15,036 bases of DNA from Chloroflexota bacterium (lineage in GTDB: Bacteria > Chloroflexota > UBA11872). The notes beneath the pieces were generated by a model. The model saw only the letters and a program-made list of their open reading frames with translations, did no database searches and was not told the origin of the DNA. This document shows, piece after piece, positions 103 through 11,028 of the stretch. The number at the start of each line of letters is the position of its first letter. Position 1 is the stretch's first letter. The position numbers and the translations under genes are program-made. The DNA is taken from contig JAPOXI010000121.1 in NCBI GenBank assembly GCA_026707185.1, forward strand, positions 1 through 15,036, read 5' to 3'.

Positions 103-1260
103 TCATCCAGGGGCCGTGCGCCCCCGGCGCAGCTCGGTTGACGAAACGTCCACTCGAAGCTCCGCGGCCGGTATCGCTTCGAAAAGCCCGGTGGCTTCGG
201 GAGGCAACCGCAGGTCGCGCAGCTGCAGAAAGCGGCCGTGCTCCAGGCGACCGGCCACCACAAACCGAGCGCCCAGCGACCGAAGTTCTCGCAACGCCGC
301 GCGCATGGCCGGCTCGCCGCCGTAATAGACTGGCTCCACGACTCGACGCGCCGTGTCGGCGCCAACCACAAACGCCGCGCCCGGCATCAGCCGGGCCTTT
401 TCCACAAACGTCGGGGCGGCCGTAAGCACCAGGCGAGCGCGACCACGAAACTGTGCGGCTCGACGCAGCGCCTTGCCAGTGGGTAGCGGCGGCTTGTCCA
501 CGTTGGTAATCGACAGTTCGTATGCAACCGGATCGCCGAACCGCCGCCGCGCCGCCTCCCACAACGCTTGGTGCGCCTGATGCCACGGATTGAACGACCC
601 CGGCACCAGCGCCGTCGGAATCCACCCGCCCGGACGCCGCCGCCCGTCGGGATAGGACGTTATCCATGGCTGCCTGCCCTCTTGGACGACCGCCAATTCG
701 TCATCTTCGAACTCGACTCTGCGCCTAGCGGAACCAAGCTGGGACCCGGCCAGTTCGCGCCACGGGGCCACCCCAGCCGCGTCAGCCAGCAGCGCCACGA
801 TTGCTCGTTCGGCGACGGTCTCCTGCGCCTGCCGATTGGCGTGCCGGGACGAGAACGGCAACTCGAGCGCAAGGGTTCGCGACCCGTCGAATGCTGCCGC
901 GTGCAGACGGTCCTCTCCCCGCCGCACCCGGTCCGTAGCCAGCGCCGCCGTACCCCCCAACCCAACCACCGGGATGGAGGCATCCGGTCGTAGTTCCACG
1001 GCCCGCCCGAAAGCCCGCCGCGCCAGGAGTTGGGACGTCTCGGCCGAGCACGCCTGCGAAGGCGCCTCGCCCAGGTAGTCGGCCACCGCCGCCGGTCCAT
1101 ACGGCACGGCAACATCCAGCACCGTGCGCGACCCACCCGGCCGTCGCAGCAACAACGGAATCGCCCCCGTCCCACCCCCCGCCAACACCAGCGTCGCCGC
1201 CGTCCGCGAGGCGTGAATACAGTGGACCAGACCGTCCAAACCGCCTTCTACGGCGGACAC
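103..1260 (-). CDS. CinA-like domain fused to NMNAT-like nucleotidyltransferase domain
   Basis: The 385-residue protein has two parts. Residues about 8-165 resemble the CinA C-terminal (PncC, NMN amidohydrolase) fold: LAGGGTGAI at 26-34, PGGS at 41-44, VPYG at 52-55, then CSAETSQLLARRA and an RRGEDR segment. Residues about 213-385 resemble NMN/nicotinate mononucleotide adenylyltransferases: GSFNPWHQAH at 221-230 matches the GxFxPxHxGH nucleotide-binding motif with Ala for the Gly, and VSSTELRRG at 372-380 matches the ISSTxIR motif. The role inferred is in pyridine-nucleotide salvage or repair. The canonical ESCTGG of CinA is not seen and the catalytic Lys after the YS motif appears absent, so the amidohydrolase half may be inactive or altered. 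The start chosen is GTG at 1260, eight bases after the Rieske gene stop; it lacks a clear Shine-Dalgarno, and a nearby TTG is an alternative. It is the last gene of the operon. Confidence 0.75.
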   Translation of the reverse strand: MSAVEGGLDGLVHCIHASRTAATLVLAGGGTGAIPLLLRRPGGSRTVLDVAVPYGPAAVADYLGEAPSQACSAETSQLLARRAFGRAVELRPDASIPVVGLGGTAALATDRVRRGEDRLHAAAFDGSRTLALELPFSSRHANRQAQETVAERAIVALLADAAGVAPWRELAGSQLGSARRRVEFEDDELAVVQEGRQPWITSYPDGRRRPGGWIPTALVPGSFNPWHQAHQALWEAARRRFGDPVAYELSITNVDKPPLPTGKALRRAAQFRGRARLVLTAAPTFVEKARLMPGAAFVVGADTARRVVEPVYYGGEPAMRAALRELRSLGARFVVAGRLEHGRFLQLRDLRLPPEATGLFEAIPAAELRVDVSSTELRRGRTAPG

Positions 1261-1267
1261 GCTCGAA

Positions 1268-1624
1268 CTACGCCAGGTCCAGGAACACGCGGCCGTCCGC
1301 CACCTGCACCGGATACACCCGCACCCGCGCCCGGTCCGGGTCGGCCAGCGCACGTCCCGTGGCCATGTCGAAAATCCAGCCGTGCCACGGGCATTGCAGC
1401 AACGTCCGTTCGTCCGTCTGGTATTCGATGTGACCGCCCACGGTCTCGGCGTGGACGTTGCCCTTGCACCGACCGGACGACAGCCGCGCGCCCTGGTGCG
1501 CGCAGACGTCGCGGGCGGCGTAGAACACCGCGCCCGAATTCACAACCACAAAGCCGCGGCCCTCGATCTCGACGCGCGTGGGCTGGCCGACGTCGAAGTC
1601 GGCCACCGCCCCTACGTCATGCAC
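1268..1624 (-). CDS. small Rieske [2Fe-2S] ferredoxin-like protein
   Basis: This 118-residue soluble protein carries both halves of the Rieske cluster site: C41-A-H43 in VCAHQGARLSSG, and C78-P-W-H81 in QCPWHGWIFD. They are separated by about 34 residues, mostly predicted beta strand, as usual for Rieske ferredoxins and non-haem oxygenase electron-transfer components. No oxygenase catalytic domain, signal peptide or membrane segment is present, so it should be a cytoplasmic electron carrier or a subunit. The start is GTG at 1624; the GTGCATGA junction overlaps the stop of the upstream amidohydrolase by eight bases, implying translational coupling. The family is clear, but the redox partner is not in view: no reductase or oxygenase subunit lies nearby. 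The context suggests it serves the neighbouring hydrolase pathway. Confidence 0.9.
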   Translation of the reverse strand: MHDVGAVADFDVGQPTRVEIEGRGFVVVNSGAVFYAARDVCAHQGARLSSGRCKGNVHAETVGGHIEYQTDERTLLQCPWHGWIFDMATGRALADPDRARVRVYPVQVADGRVFLDLA

Positions 1625-5985: not shown

Positions 5986-6018
5986 CGGGAACAAATGTCC
6001 CGGAACTGAGGTGTGGCA

Positions 6019-7908
6019 ATGGCCTCCATAGACTCTGACGTCATGAGCTCCGACTTGCGGCGTGAAGCGCATATGCGCCGCAGTCCACTTACGTTCGTGC
6101 GCGAGCACTGGCGCGCGATTTTCATCTATCTCGGGCTCACCGGCCTACTGATTTTTGGCCTTACAAACGCCTCGGAAATCACGCTGGGCATTCTGGCCTT
6201 CCTCTTCCAACTGCTGTTCGCCATGACGTTCATGGTCGTCCAGTTCGGCGCGCTCTTCTACATTCTGGGCCGCGGCCGCGTCTACTGGGTGCAGCCCGGC
6301 GAGACGGGGGTGTATTTCACCGACTACCGCGGCAACGACCAGGTGCTGGAAGTGGCGCGGCGCGTGGTGCGGCTGCTGCAAGGCGCGAAAGCCTTCAAGC
6401 GCATGGGCGGTGAGATTACCCGCGGCGTGCTGCTGGAAGGCCCGCCGGGCACCGGCAAGAGCTACCTGGCGCAGGTGATTGCGAACGAGGCGAGTATCCC
6501 ATTCGCCTACGCCTCCGCGCCGGGGTTCCAGAACATGTTCATGGGCATCGGCAACTTGCGGGTGCGGATGCTCTACGGCAAGGCTCGCAAGATGGCGCGC
6601 AAGTACGGTGCCGCCATCATCTTCATCGACGAAATCGACGCCATCGGCATGGCCCGCGCCGGACAGACGGGCGGCGGGATGATGATGGGCGGCTTGTTCG
6701 GCGGCGGCGCGGGCTTTGGCCTGTTGAACGAATTGCTGCTGCAAATGGACCCGCCGAACTTTGACAACGGCTGGGTTTCGCGATTGCTCCGAACGCTTGG
6801 TCTACGCAAGACCCGAGCCATGCCGCCGATCGTGCTGACGATGGGCGCCACCAACCTGGCGTCTGCGCTGGATCACGCGCTTCTGCGCCCTGGCCGGTTC
6901 GACCGCAAAATCCACGTGGACCTTCCGGATCTGGATGGGCGCAAGGACATCATCGAGTACTACCTGGCCAAGGTTCGGCACGAGGACATGCCGGTCGAAC
7001 GCATGGCGAACGACACCATCCTCTACACGCCCGTGGCAATTAAGTTCGTGATCAACGAAGCGGTAATTCACGCGCACTTCGACGGTCGCGACGCGATCAG
7101 CTACGACGACTTCACGCGCGCTCGTGAGAATCACGAGTGGGGACTGCGCGAACCGATTCGCGGGCTGACCGAGGAGGACCGGCGGCGGCTGGCCTACCAC
7201 GAAGCCGGTCACGCCATCGCACAGGTGAAGCTCAAGGACTGGGAACGCCTGACTAAGGTGACGATCATTCGTCACGGCGACGCCCTGGGCCTGGCGGCCT
7301 GGAAGCCGGTGGAGGAAAAGCGCGTCCTCATTCGCGAAGAGTTGCTGGCCAGCATTCAGGTAAGCCTGGCCAGCCGCGCGGCCGAAGAACTGTTCCTGGG
7401 GTCGCAGACGTTGGGCGTCACGTCCGACTTTGCCGGTGCCACGCACCTGGCCTTCCAGATGCTTAGCTTCTGGGGCATGGACGGCAGCTTCTATTCGTCC
7501 CTGCCATTCGGCCCAATGGTGGACGCCAACGATCCGCGCATGAAGCGCAAGATCGACCAGGTGCTGGAGCAGGAATACCGCAAGGTCAAGGGTCTGCTTT
7601 CCGAATACTCGGGCGCAGTGCATGAACTGGCGCAGGAGTTGATTGCGAACGACGAAGTAGACGGCCAGGATGTCGAGGACATGGTGCAGCGCTGGGACGA
7701 GCAGATCGCCGAGGGCAACCGGCTCAAGGCGCTGCCCGAAGGCGGCGTGCTGGTTAGCGCCGACGCCGAGCCACAGCCGTACACCTACGGCGGGAACGGC
7801 AACGGCTCGAATGGGCGCAACGGCCACTCCGATGAGGCTCCTAGCCGTGAGCAGCGTCGGACCCGCCTTCGCGACAGGTATCGGTCCAGCCAAAAACCGG
7901 ATTCGTAG
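6019..7908 (+). CDS. divergent FtsH-like membrane AAA+ zinc metalloprotease
   Basis: The 629-residue protein has two N-terminal membrane segments (about 33-50 and 55-83), an AAA module and a peptidase M41 module. Walker A is GPPGTGKS at 141-148, Walker B IIFIDEID at 200-207, N279 is sensor 1, and R290/R293 in LLRPGRFDR are arginine-finger positions. The zinc site is HEAGH at 394-398 with D470 as likely third ligand. FMG at 174-176 takes the place of the FVG pore motif. Unlike usual FtsH, only about five residues separate the two membrane segments, so the extracytoplasmic domain is missing. There is a Gly/Met-rich insert (217-234) and a second insert (245-268) between Walker B and sensor 1. 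The tail is Asn/Gly-rich then basic. ATG at 6019 has GAGGTG five bases upstream. It should degrade membrane or cytoplasmic proteins at the inner membrane. Confidence 0.88.
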   Translation: MASIDSDVMSSDLRREAHMRRSPLTFVREHWRAIFIYLGLTGLLIFGLTNASEITLGILAFLFQLLFAMTFMVVQFGALFYILGRGRVYWVQPGETGVYFTDYRGNDQVLEVARRVVRLLQGAKAFKRMGGEITRGVLLEGPPGTGKSYLAQVIANEASIPFAYASAPGFQNMFMGIGNLRVRMLYGKARKMARKYGAAIIFIDEIDAIGMARAGQTGGGMMMGGLFGGGAGFGLLNELLLQMDPPNFDNGWVSRLLRTLGLRKTRAMPPIVLTMGATNLASALDHALLRPGRFDRKIHVDLPDLDGRKDIIEYYLAKVRHEDMPVERMANDTILYTPVAIKFVINEAVIHAHFDGRDAISYDDFTRARENHEWGLREPIRGLTEEDRRRLAYHEAGHAIAQVKLKDWERLTKVTIIRHGDALGLAAWKPVEEKRVLIREELLASIQVSLASRAAEELFLGSQTLGVTSDFAGATHLAFQMLSFWGMDGSFYSSLPFGPMVDANDPRMKRKIDQVLEQEYRKVKGLLSEYSGAVHELAQELIANDEVDGQDVEDMVQRWDEQIAEGNRLKALPEGGVLVSADAEPQPYTYGGNGNGSNGRNGHSDEAPSREQRRTRLRDRYRSSQKPDS

Positions 7909-7968: not shown

Positions 7969-8478
7969 TCAGCCGTCGATGAGCGCCAGCCGGTCGGCGA
8001 GGAAGTCCAGGCGCTCAAACGCTCCGCGGCGGAGCCGCTGATAAATCTGTAGGGCGCGATCTGCCTGACCGGAGCGGATGGCATCGCGAATGGCTTCCGC
8101 GTCCCCAACGAAGCGGTCGAAGTGTTCGAGGAACGTCCCGTGAAAGAGCGTGGCCAGTGCCGGGGCTTCCAGTTCCGCCGCGCGTGCCTGGGCGTCAATC
8201 ATGACGTTGTGGAATGCAATCGTCCGTTCCTCGGACCCGGCCATTCCCTCAAGCGTGGCCCAGGCGTCGGCCTCGGGACCGAAAAAATCGTCGAACGCAG
8301 CACGTTCGTCAGTCAGGATTCCTGCGACCGTGTCCATGTACACCCGACGCTCGGCGTCCGACGGATCAACCGACACACCGCTCGGCGCTGGCGCCGATTC
8401 GCCGCAGGCAACGAGGAGTGCGGCAGCCAGAGCAACCCCAAGTGTTCGGCGGCCCATCGCGCGCCGGTTGCTAGCCAT
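7969..8478 (-). CDS. predicted lipoprotein of unknown function with twin-arginine-like signal
   Basis: The 169-residue protein starts with a basic region, a hydrophobic stretch (VALAAALLVA) and a lipobox LLVAC with C25, so it should be lipid-anchored outside the cytoplasmic membrane. The n-region contains R10-R11 in GRRTLGV, which resembles a Tat motif (RRx then hydrophobic). The mature part is acidic, mostly predicted helix, and belongs to no family I recognise. The ATG at 8478 is used; ATG at residue 8 is an alternative, and neither has a strong ribosome binding site. It follows the TatB-like gene on the same strand after 76 bases and converges with the FtsH-like gene, 60 bases apart. Confidence 0.75.
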   Translation of the reverse strand: MASNRRAMGRRTLGVALAAALLVACGESAPAPSGVSVDPSDAERRVYMDTVAGILTDERAAFDDFFGPEADAWATLEGMAGSEERTIAFHNVMIDAQARAAELEAPALATLFHGTFLEHFDRFVGDAEAIRDAIRSGQADRALQIYQRLRRGAFERLDFLADRLALIDG

Positions 8479-8554: not shown

Positions 8555-9865
8555 CTACAACACGGCCTCGTGCTCGGCGGTTGCTTCGTCCCGGTCACTC
8601 GTGTCGTCGTCGATCTTCAGCCCGAACTGCCGCATGCGGGCATGGGTCAGGATGATGAGCTGGCAGCGGTCGGCGCCATCGCTCATGCGGGTGGTGTACG
8701 TGGCCTTCATGTCGAACCGCTTGAAGAACTCGTCGTCGTAAACGTTGCTGACGCTGCAGACCGGATGGTCCTTGCCCGGCGTCAGGCCATAGGGACACGT
8801 TCCAAACTCGATCACGGCTGAAGATTCGGCGCGCTGATCCACTTCAACGGCGTCGTGCGGGACCAGGTGGCGACGGCGAGCCGCCCAGGCGTGAGCGATA
8901 TCGACCGGCTCGGGATCTTCCAGGTCACCCAGGCTTTCGGCGTCAGCGCGGGCCTGGCTCCTGAGGGCGGCCTCGGCCTGCTCGGCAAAGTCGGGATCGG
9001 CCTCGATCGCCTGCATCACCATCAGCCGCATAAAGCCGCCCATCTGGTTCTGCAGGCCAGGAGTGGGGGGGCCAAGTGCCGCCGCGGGCGCCGCGGGCTC
9101 GTCGGGCGTGGTGGCCACCGCTGCGGCGGTCGGCTCGGGCGCGGCCACCGACGGCGGCCCCGCCGGTGCGCCCGATTCGGTCGGACCGTTTACGTCCGGT
9201 GCATAGGCCGACAATCCCTGACCGGTCGGCTGTGGTGTCACCGGTTCGGCCAAAGGCGCAGGCTCTGGCGGAGCTTCGACCGCGGCGACCGGCGGCATCT
9301 CGCCGGCATGGCCATTGGTTGAAGCGGCAAACGTGTCCTGGATGGCCAGCGCCATGGCGTCCGCTGCCGGCAGAGGCTCAGACGTCGTCGACGTGGTCGC
9401 CGGCGTTGGCGCCGGGAGCGCCGGCGACGCTGGCGTCGCCGAGGCATTGGCATCGGGCGCCGGCAGGCCCGGTGCGGAGGTGGCGCCGGCCGACGACCCG
9501 GAAGCTCCCGGCGAATTCTCAGCCCCAGCCTGACCGGCGCTGACCGCGCCGCGCAGGTCGTCCGCGATGCCCTGCCCGGCCACGTTAACGTCGTCCGCCG
9601 CACCCTGCAGCGTGTCCGAGAGCTCTGAGCGAATGTCGGCCAGTTCCTGGCGCGTGTTCTCGGCTTCCTGGCGCAGGACGTCCATTTCCTCGTAGAGGAT
9701 TGAGAATTCTTCTGCGAATTCCTTGCGAAACTCGCGCGTCATTTGGCGCAGTTGCCGCACCCAGCGGCCCAGCGTGCGCATGGCGCGCGGCAGCCGCTCC
9801 GGGCCAAGCACGATGAGCGCAAGGACCAGAACGGCAAAAAACTCGGCGACGCCTATGCCGAACAT
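8555..9865 (-). CDS. TatB/TatA-like translocase subunit with long linker and cysteine-containing C-terminal domain
   Basis: The protein is 436 residues against about 90-170 for usual TatA/TatB. Residues 1-20 are the membrane helix (MFGIGVAEFFAVLVLALIVL) with E8 as in TatB; GPERLPRAMRTLGRWVRQLR is the hinge and amphipathic helix. Residues 45-105 are a charged coiled-coil-like helix. Residues about 110-270 are a Pro/Ala/Thr-rich disordered linker. The last 160 residues fold separately by appearance: helices at 272-312, then C357-P-Y, C370 and C401 with spacing C-x12-C-x30-C, ending in an acidic tail. This pattern resembles the metal-binding end of SufR-like regulators and the ATC-hydrolase-like domain; which is unresolved. 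It should take part in Tat export with TatC, which is not in this window. No good ribosome binding site precedes the ATG. Confidence 0.82.
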   Translation of the reverse strand: MFGIGVAEFFAVLVLALIVLGPERLPRAMRTLGRWVRQLRQMTREFRKEFAEEFSILYEEMDVLRQEAENTRQELADIRSELSDTLQGAADDVNVAGQGIADDLRGAVSAGQAGAENSPGASGSSAGATSAPGLPAPDANASATPASPALPAPTPATTSTTSEPLPAADAMALAIQDTFAASTNGHAGEMPPVAAVEAPPEPAPLAEPVTPQPTGQGLSAYAPDVNGPTESGAPAGPPSVAAPEPTAAAVATTPDEPAAPAAALGPPTPGLQNQMGGFMRLMVMQAIEADPDFAEQAEAALRSQARADAESLGDLEDPEPVDIAHAWAARRRHLVPHDAVEVDQRAESSAVIEFGTCPYGLTPGKDHPVCSVSNVYDDEFFKRFDMKATYTTRMSDGADRCQLIILTHARMRQFGLKIDDDTSDRDEATAEHEAVL

Positions 9866-9954: not shown

Positions 9955-11028
9955 TCAAGATGCCCGGGCTCTGAGCGCGGCGCGCACCGCATCGCCGAAC
10001 TCGCCCGTGGAGGCTGTGCCACCCAGATCAACGGTGAGTACCCCGGAACCCGTCACGTCCGCCAGGGCATCCAGCAGCAGGTTGGCGGCATCCTGATTTC
10101 CGAAGTCTTCCACCATCATTGCCGCCGACCAGATGGATGCGAGGGGGTTGGCAATCTCCTGGCCAGCGATGTCGGGCGCGGAGCCGTGGACCGGTTCGAA
10201 CATCGGCGGGTAGCCGGTGCCCGGGCTGAGGTTGGCGCTGGGCGGCACGCCCAGGCTGCCCATCAGCGCGCCGCCGATATCGGACAGGATGTCGCCAAAG
10301 AGGTTGGAGGCAACCAGCACGTCCAAAGTTTGAGGATTGCCCACCATCCGAGCGGCGCAGGCGTCGACCAGGTTGCGGTCGGTGGTGATTGCGGGATATT
10401 CGCGCGCAACCTCGTCGAAGACCTCGTCCCAGAAAACCGGCGCGTACTGCAGGGCGTTGGACTTCGTGACGTTGGTGACGTGTCTGCGCCCCAAGCGCTC
10501 GGTGAGTTCGAAGGCGTGCCGGATCACTCGCTCCACGCCCACCCGCGTAAACACGGTTGTCTGTAGCGCGACTTCGTAGGGCGTCGCCTGGTGCACGCGC
10601 CCGCCAGTGCCGGCGTATTCGCCCTCGGAGTTCTCGCGGACGCAGATGAAGTCGATCCCCTCCAGCCGGTCGGCCGCGAGCGGGCTGGAGACGCCAGGCC
10701 AGATGCGGACCGGACGGATGTTGGCATACTGCTGAAAACTCTGACGGATCAGCAGGATCATCTCGCGCTGGGAGATGGGGTCCGGAACGCTGGGAAAGCC
10801 GCAGGCGCCGAAATAGATGGCGTCGAACTGCTCCAGCGTCTTGAGGGCGTCGGAGGGCATCATCTCGCCGTGGTCGAGGTAGTACTGGCAGCCCCAGGGG
10901 AAGTCCTCGAATTCCAGGATCAGGTCGCCGGTGACCTCACTGAGCGTTTCGAGGGTGAGGCGGCCTTCGCGAATGACCTCGACACCGATCCCGTCGCCGG
11001 GAACTACAGCAATCGAGTGCGTGGACAT
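9955..11028 (-). CDS. tartrate / D-malate dehydrogenase family protein (NAD-dependent beta-decarboxylating)
   Basis: The 357-residue protein is a member of the isocitrate/isopropylmalate dehydrogenase superfamily and most resembles the TtuC/DmlA branch. It opens with VVPGDGIGVEV, has EDFPWGCQYYLDHGEMMP (41-58), the substrate-arginine region QYANIRPVR (100-108) and R131 in VRENSEGEYAG, K189 in VTKSNA, metal ligands D222, D246 and D250 in NLFGDILSDIGGALMGSLG, and the NAD-binding HGSAPDIAG (281-289). The branch oxidises and decarboxylates D-malate or oxidises tartrate, using NAD+; 3-isopropylmalate remains possible since no leuC/leuD is nearby to decide. It is cytoplasmic. ATG at 11028 has only a weak ribosome binding site; a TATACT box lies 28 bases upstream. 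It may lead a transcript with the TatB-like and lipoprotein genes. Confidence 0.9.
   Translation of the reverse strand: MSTHSIAVVPGDGIGVEVIREGRLTLETLSEVTGDLILEFEDFPWGCQYYLDHGEMMPSDALKTLEQFDAIYFGACGFPSVPDPISQREMILLIRQSFQQYANIRPVRIWPGVSSPLAADRLEGIDFICVRENSEGEYAGTGGRVHQATPYEVALQTTVFTRVGVERVIRHAFELTERLGRRHVTNVTKSNALQYAPVFWDEVFDEVAREYPAITTDRNLVDACAARMVGNPQTLDVLVASNLFGDILSDIGGALMGSLGVPPSANLSPGTGYPPMFEPVHGSAPDIAGQEIANPLASIWSAAMMVEDFGNQDAANLLLDALADVTGSGVLTVDLGGTASTGEFGDAVRAALRARAS

Follow-up and report, generated by a model that had tools for sequence, protein, structure and literature searches.

TatB, a subunit of the twin-arginine translocation (Tat) system, has its N-terminus outside and its C-terminus in the cytoplasm. 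In E. coli, TatB has 171 residues and its tail, a random coil from residue 96, is described as mostly dispensable (PMC9436932). According to the same source, TatB takes part in folding quality control, and how the Tat system checks folding and cofactor loading before exporting folded proteins, many of which carry cofactors, is an open question. Here, we analyse a gene from a 15,036-nucleotide stretch of Chloroflexota DNA (contig JAPOXI010000121.1, hereafter the window). In contrast with E. coli TatB, its product is a TatB from which a long tether, disordered over most of its length, leads to a folded C-terminal domain of the Bet3/V4R superfamily that carries three cysteines.

Several regulators bear cysteine sets comparable to that of the C-terminal domain. 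In Rv1460, a SufR homologue that binds an iron-sulfur (Fe-S) cluster, C203, C216 and C244 (C-x12-C-x27-C) are required for function (PMC6034842). The motif given for cyanobacterial SufR is C-X12-C-X13-C-X14-C (PMC8593673). ArnR of corynebacteria holds a [4Fe-4S] cluster and uses C179, C193 and C223; the source names no fourth ligand and likens the modelled sensor domain to TRAPPC3 (PMC12343034). TRAPPC3 is a Bet3 protein, and V4R has been presented as the ancestor of Bet3 (PMC2253512). Metal ligands vary in this group. The zinc of DmpR is held by C151, E172, C177 and C185 (PMC7264223). In Thorarchaeal TRAPPC3, zinc is bound by four cysteines whose positions are not fully conserved between homologues, and in mouse TRAPPC3 the site is replaced by a hydrogen bond (PMC10933270). 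Finally, DNA binding by MaMsvR depends on its redox state and on its V4R cysteines (PMC3729527).

The gene is an ATG-started open reading frame (ORF) of 436 residues on the minus strand, running from 9865 down to 8555. Residues 2-73 score 66.3 bits with the curated TatB profile TIGR01410, above the cut-off of 56.5, and the protein scores 25.6 with PF02416 (cut-off 21). As in E. coli TatB, a single N-terminal membrane helix is followed by a GPERLP hinge and a long helix; AlphaFold2 (AF2) places the two helices at residues 6-20 and 22-112 with low to middling confidence. The linker that follows spans 160 residues (Pro+Ala 46%, P/A/S/T/G 74%). In the full-length AF2 model, the predicted local distance difference test (pLDDT) is below 50 over residues 111-273. 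An earlier note on this DNA had pointed out E8, the hinge, the Pro/Ala linker and C357, C370 and C401. All are found as described in the ORF translation, and C357-x12-C370-x30-C401 is the whole cysteine complement of the protein.

A search with the C-terminal domain as query returned 35 proteins of 390 to 448 residues, that of the window included. All match PF02416 and show the same architecture, with the fusion and the three cysteines. The fusion is also encoded at the 12 loci, out of 12, found by a genome search. The earlier note had read one continuous frame from the TatB helix into the cysteine domain, while allowing that no relative might share it; the frame holds and the relatives do share it, together with all three cysteines in 35 of 35. 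In this set, TatB (residues 1-105) and the C-terminal domain (residues 268-414) have mean pairwise identities of 0.89 and 0.88, against 0.50 in the linker; two islands rise above the linker as a whole (Table 1). Motifs related to the first island are visible by eye in loci L044-L047, not in L048-L053. Because the C-terminal domain is conserved as well as TatB, and because fusion and triad are present in every member, the fusion is more than a chance event. A join made during assembly is excluded since all 12 loci encode the fusion and several of the 35 proteins sit on contigs over 3 Mb.

In the Chloroflexota class of one relative, the domain is present in 30 of the 41 genomes examined. Seventeen matching loci were opened from this survey, and all start as TatB, one of them (L054) being cut by the contig end. 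The 12 loci mentioned above are further ones, from genomes partly matched (L001, L007, L008, L012). Taken together, the 35 proteins, the 12 loci and the 30 genomes rule out a chimeric assembly or a frame-shifted join, an explanation left with a negligible chance. That the TatB fusion is real is practically certain.

We also surveyed 400 genomes of the phylum with the domain profile. Thirty-one matched, namely the same 30 class genomes and G027, in which the match (E 1.4e-4) is the C-terminal domain of a SufR-like regulator, itself below the SufR cut-off. Weak relatives may have been missed, since at most the best 10 candidates per genome were scored. A second weak match (G013:C60, L131, E 0.0088) was dropped, its frame showing no evident regulator. 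Ten short matches that could have been free-standing copies appear, on visual inspection, to be fragments of this fusion, and every complete copy of the domain found is tied to TatB. Within one Chloroflexota class, TatB and the C-terminal domain are conserved together. The relatives encode TatC (14 of 14 fusion genomes searched) and, in 15 of 17 cases (G003 and G036 are without it), a second PF02416 gene of 87-134 residues. As this other gene is short and TatA-like, the fusion is the only TatB candidate in these relatives. Literature searches, with most subscription papers outside their reach, listed no TatB fusion of this kind. Both halves are of known kinds; their combination appears undescribed within the searchable literature and stable over a class-level lineage.

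The full-length AF2 model (mean pLDDT 50) was too weak to be used for the C-terminal domain, and a domain-only model was used instead (pLDDT 85.2; predicted template modelling score 0.81). Its predicted topology comprises three helices, two strands, one helix and two strands. VIA-align and Foldseek assigned the model to the Bet3/V4R fold, which is also that of the DmpR, MopR, PoxR and TRAPPC3 structures. It is therefore highly probable that the domain belongs to the Bet3/V4R structural superfamily. PDB searches at the sequence level found no relative, either with the C-terminal domain alone (best E 0.49, a DNA ligase) or with the domain alignment A2 (best E 0.32); the SufR-like alignment A5 found no relative either, its best matches being designed proteins (E 0.012).

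Profile comparisons were made with families all taken from Chloroflexota: 17 SufR-like, 20 V4R, 8 MetOD1 and 7 divergent ATC_hydrolase-like sequences. The SufR-like set was chosen by a pattern demanding the cysteine motif, which left out motif-less sequences such as L134 and L164. Using hhalign, an alignment of 115 domain sequences matched the SufR-like C-terminal domains with a probability of 92 and a score of 44.2 (maximum 19.4 in 200 column shuffles); the smaller alignment A2 gave a probability of 88.5. The three cysteines of the triad fall in register with those of the regulators in this alignment. The SufR-type set is C-x12-C-x27/28-C, so that the first spacing is identical and the last one is x30 here versus x27 in Rv1460. 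After masking of all cysteines the score was 26.2, and none of 100 masked shuffles exceeded 18.7. Thus, the match is not due to the cysteines alone. The two proteins differ at their other end: the N-terminal helix-turn-helix (HTH) DNA-binding domain of SufR has the TatB membrane helix in its place here.

The other families also scored above their shuffles. ATC_hydrolase-like sequences gave the highest score of the four (49.5, maximum 21.5 in 60 shuffles), V4R gave 35.4 (maximum 15.6) and MetOD1 33.2 (maximum 19.7). As the V4R and MetOD1 sets share proteins (e.g. L184 and L146), their scores do not count as independent, and the SufR-like and MetOD1 matches coincide in 5 of 14 MetOD1 rows. The earlier note had proposed resemblances to SufR-like regulators and to ATC hydrolases, and both are recovered. 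From these alignments, the four families look like one superfamily. In searches with single family profiles, TIGR02702 (SufR) is missing from the list of 14 families matching this protein up to E 1, and V4R (PF02830) from the list of 20 matching the 35 members up to E 10. MetOD1 (PF18546) scored 13.8 for this protein, below the cut-off of 23.8, and matched 30 of the 35 members weakly (best E 0.0018). ATC_hydrolase (PF14196) gave no match for this protein up to E 10 and matched three of the 35 (best E 0.12).

A joint alignment of the families, read without rows Tat_P003, Suf_L154 and ATC_L198, places C370 and C401 opposite two cysteines that are conserved in the V4R domains of Chloroflexota. 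By motif, these two would correspond to zinc ligands of DmpR, the residue mapping being our own. The domain thus resembles V4R/Bet3 (TRAPPC3), DmpR, MopR and PoxR in its fold and at two of its three cysteine positions. It differs from them by the additional cysteine after strand 2; in the alignments with Chloroflexota V4R rows, the V4R Glu and Cys located between the two shared cysteines are absent from the TatB domain. With ArnR, it shares a three-cysteine set (C-x13-C-x29-C in ArnR) of the same overall span. ArnR differs in being a winged HTH regulator, and its kinship would be drawn from the reported spacing and fold.

For a census of the cysteines, we used 133 aligned rows made of proteins of at least 240 residues and of the 17 loci, with some redundancy where a locus and a protein represent the same gene. 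Six rows were set aside, four having no letters in at least one of the columns (P0119, P0120, P0128, L054) and two having unrelated sequence there (P0121, P0122). All three cysteines are present in 124 of the 127 scorable rows and none in the remaining three (L046, L047 and P0117). The three cysteines are retained or lost together. In 41 of the 124 rows, a fourth cysteine is located three residues past C370 (C-x12-C-x2-C-x27-C). This variant includes L048-L053 (genomes G036-G041), in which a long acidic/Ala tail replaces the short one. The cysteine-less proteins L046 (3511-4566, plus strand), L047 (3462-4553, plus strand) and P0117 are fusions that have kept the domain, with W327, P358, Y376 and D377 retained. 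They form one clade (support 98/98) in a tree of full-length proteins that has 31 rows and is rooted for drawing only. Since cysteines are present in the related families, a single loss of all three would be the simplest reading. Two residues were considered as a fourth ligand and rejected: H367 is invariant in the 35 close proteins and not in distant members, and D377 is still conserved in the cysteine-less rows.

These data suggest that the domain probably contains a metal or cluster site. C357, C370 and C401 would bind a metal cofactor, most likely a [4Fe-4S] cluster, as judged from the superfamily, the SufR/ArnR-type cysteine set and the ligand positions; Fe-S rather than zinc has, in our estimate, about an even chance. 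From the topology of TatB we infer that the domain is cytoplasmic. Like the one reported for ArnR, the cluster could be a [4Fe-4S] labile to O2 or nitric oxide (NO), with a fourth ligand other than cysteine. With its two conserved islands, the tether would bring the TatBC receptor or a docked substrate within range of the domain, and cluster occupancy or redox state would alter the contact made there. Export of folded, cofactor-bearing proteins might in this way follow the Fe-S or redox status of the cell; alternatively, the domain might contribute to the proofreading of cofactor loading. That the domain regulates export is speculative and leans towards the doubtful. The whole reading, a TatB whose tethered cytoplasmic sensor domain for metal or Fe-S serves to tune or proofread Tat export, is a tentative one, to which we give slightly less than an even chance.

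Several observations weigh against it. "SufR-like" is a loose label, since TIGR02702 matched in 95 of 151 phylum genomes and in none above its cut-off. The in-register cysteines are partly built in because the selection pattern demands the motif and the members of the set lie below the SufR cut-off; the cysteine-masked control addresses this concern, with a smaller margin. The best profile score went to the ATC_hydrolase-like family and not to the SufR-like one. Foldseek TM-scores (template modelling scores) are only about 0.5, and the V4R/Bet3 fold serves zinc, phenol and acyl ligands too. The clade of L046, L047 and P0117 holds the domain without any triad cysteine, so the domain can do without the cofactor. 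Finally, no Fe-S gene was seen among the window ORFs scanned, and the gene neighbourhood gives no hint.

The main alternative is that a structural zinc ties the sheet to a helix, as in DmpR, PoxR and archaeal TRAPPC3, the domain being a ligand-binding or docking platform that assists TatB. Its ligand could be a small hydrophobic molecule, a lipid or a substrate protein. The fold common to the zinc-bearing DmpR/MopR/PoxR and TRAPPC3 structures, the zinc sites described in DmpR (PMC7264223) and Thorarchaeal TRAPPC3 (PMC10933270) and the existence of a four-cysteine variant all agree with this explanation, and the loss of the site in mouse TRAPPC3 (PMC10933270) parallels the cysteine-less clade. 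The ligand set is nevertheless of the SufR/ArnR type, with the cysteine after strand 2 present and the V4R Glu and Cys absent. We regard structural zinc, with its platform, as somewhat unlikely. The three cysteines might instead make and break disulfides and so reshape the domain, a mechanism put forward for the V4R cysteines of MsvR. The dependence of MaMsvR DNA binding on redox state and V4R cysteines is a precedent; however, C206, C232 and C240 of MsvR are spaced otherwise than C-x12-C-x30-C (PMC3729527), and the joint retention or loss of three or four cysteines is more in keeping with a metal site than with a single disulfide. Such a thiol switch is improbable. Less likely still is an enzyme, i.e. 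a tethered hydrolase of the ATC-hydrolase type working at the membrane. The leading profile score speaks for it, but it was obtained with a comparison set of only seven divergent sequences, the Pfam family itself hardly matches the 35 members, and the attachment of all complete copies to TatB would be odd for an enzyme.

Table 1. Features of the tatB fusion gene in the window. Residues are those of the encoded protein; identities are means over the 35 search proteins.
Feature	Position	Strand	Basis
Whole gene, TatB - linker - cysteine-triad domain	8555..9865	-	ORF, translation; architecture common to 35/35 search proteins
TatB part, residues 1-105: membrane helix 6-20, hinge, long helix	9551..9865	-	TIGR01410, PF02416, AF2 helices
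GPERLP hinge, residues 21-26	9788..9805	-	sequence
Pro/Ala-rich linker, residues 106-265, mostly modelled without order	9071..9550	-	composition, pLDDT
Linker island, residues 164-180 (DAMALAIQDTF), predicted helix	9326..9376	-	identity 0.89 (linker overall 0.50); helix 167-179 in AF2
Linker island, residues 217-229 (LSAYAPDVNGP)	9179..9217	-	identity 0.80 (linker overall 0.50)
C-terminal domain, residues 268-414, Bet3/V4R fold	8624..9064	-	AF2 domain model, VIA-align, Foldseek, profile comparison
C357, loop after strand 2, CPY motif	8795..8797	-	invariant 35/35; in register with SufR-like Cys 1
C370, first turn of helix 4	8756..8758	-	invariant 35/35; in register with SufR-like Cys 2 and V4R Cys
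C401, start of strand 4, GADRC	8663..8665	-	invariant 35/35; in register with SufR-like Cys 3 and V4R Cys

The gene next before tatB, 89 bases apart, encodes a PF00180 dehydrogenase (leuB-like; window 9955-11028, minus strand). In the near and middle clades it adjoins tatB at every one of the 18 loci (L001-L012, L055-L060); tblastn at E 1e-5 did not detect it in L044-L054 or L091-L099, and neighbours in distant loci were inspected by eye. The gene next after tatB (7969-8478, minus strand) occupies the same place in 11 of the 12 loci L001-L012 and in L060. It encodes a protein of 169 residues that starts with a double-Arg pair, a hydrophobic stretch and a Cys, by eye resembling a Tat-type lipoprotein signal. 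Elsewhere in the window, the ORF 6013-7908 (plus strand) encodes a divergent FtsH-like protein that matches AAA and Peptidase_M41 and scores 312.7 bits with TIGR01241 (cut-off 600). The ORF 103-1353 (minus strand) ends in a nucleotidyltransferase-like part that falls just short of the CTP_transf_like cut-off (20.6 bits, cut-off 21); its differing N-terminal part has no family match.

Eleven genomes of the class lack the domain. Nine long TatB-like genes were opened in them and four of their tails were scanned. UPF0175 (PF03683), an HTH-like family, was found above its cut-off of 27.9 bits in two of the four (33.6 and 34.5 bits; G025 and G026), and weakly below it in G031; G034 gave no match. 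The long TatB-like proteins of sister genomes at L091 (2967-4487, plus strand) and L092 (1478-2983, minus strand) end in UPF0175; the match is weaker in L095 and missing in L097. With TIGR01410, the TatB parts score 45.2 in L091 (below the cut-off), 59.9 in L095 (above) and 55.1 in L097 (just below). In this class, the tail of TatB may thus be a site for exchangeable modules.

In its boldest form, our proposal would be that the Tat translocase of this class is itself an Fe-S sensor, a SufR/ArnR-type [4Fe-4S] module on a tether gating export at the receptor according to Fe-S, O2 or NO status, and that in sister lineages an HTH-like tail has taken the place of the module; we consider this rather unlikely as a whole. 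If true, the fusion would provide a direct physical link between the Tat translocase and cofactor or redox status, of which we know no other example, and gating at the receptor would add to substrate-specific chaperones and transcription. The natural variants, with three-cysteine, four-cysteine, cysteine-less and HTH-tailed TatB, offer a ready comparison set.
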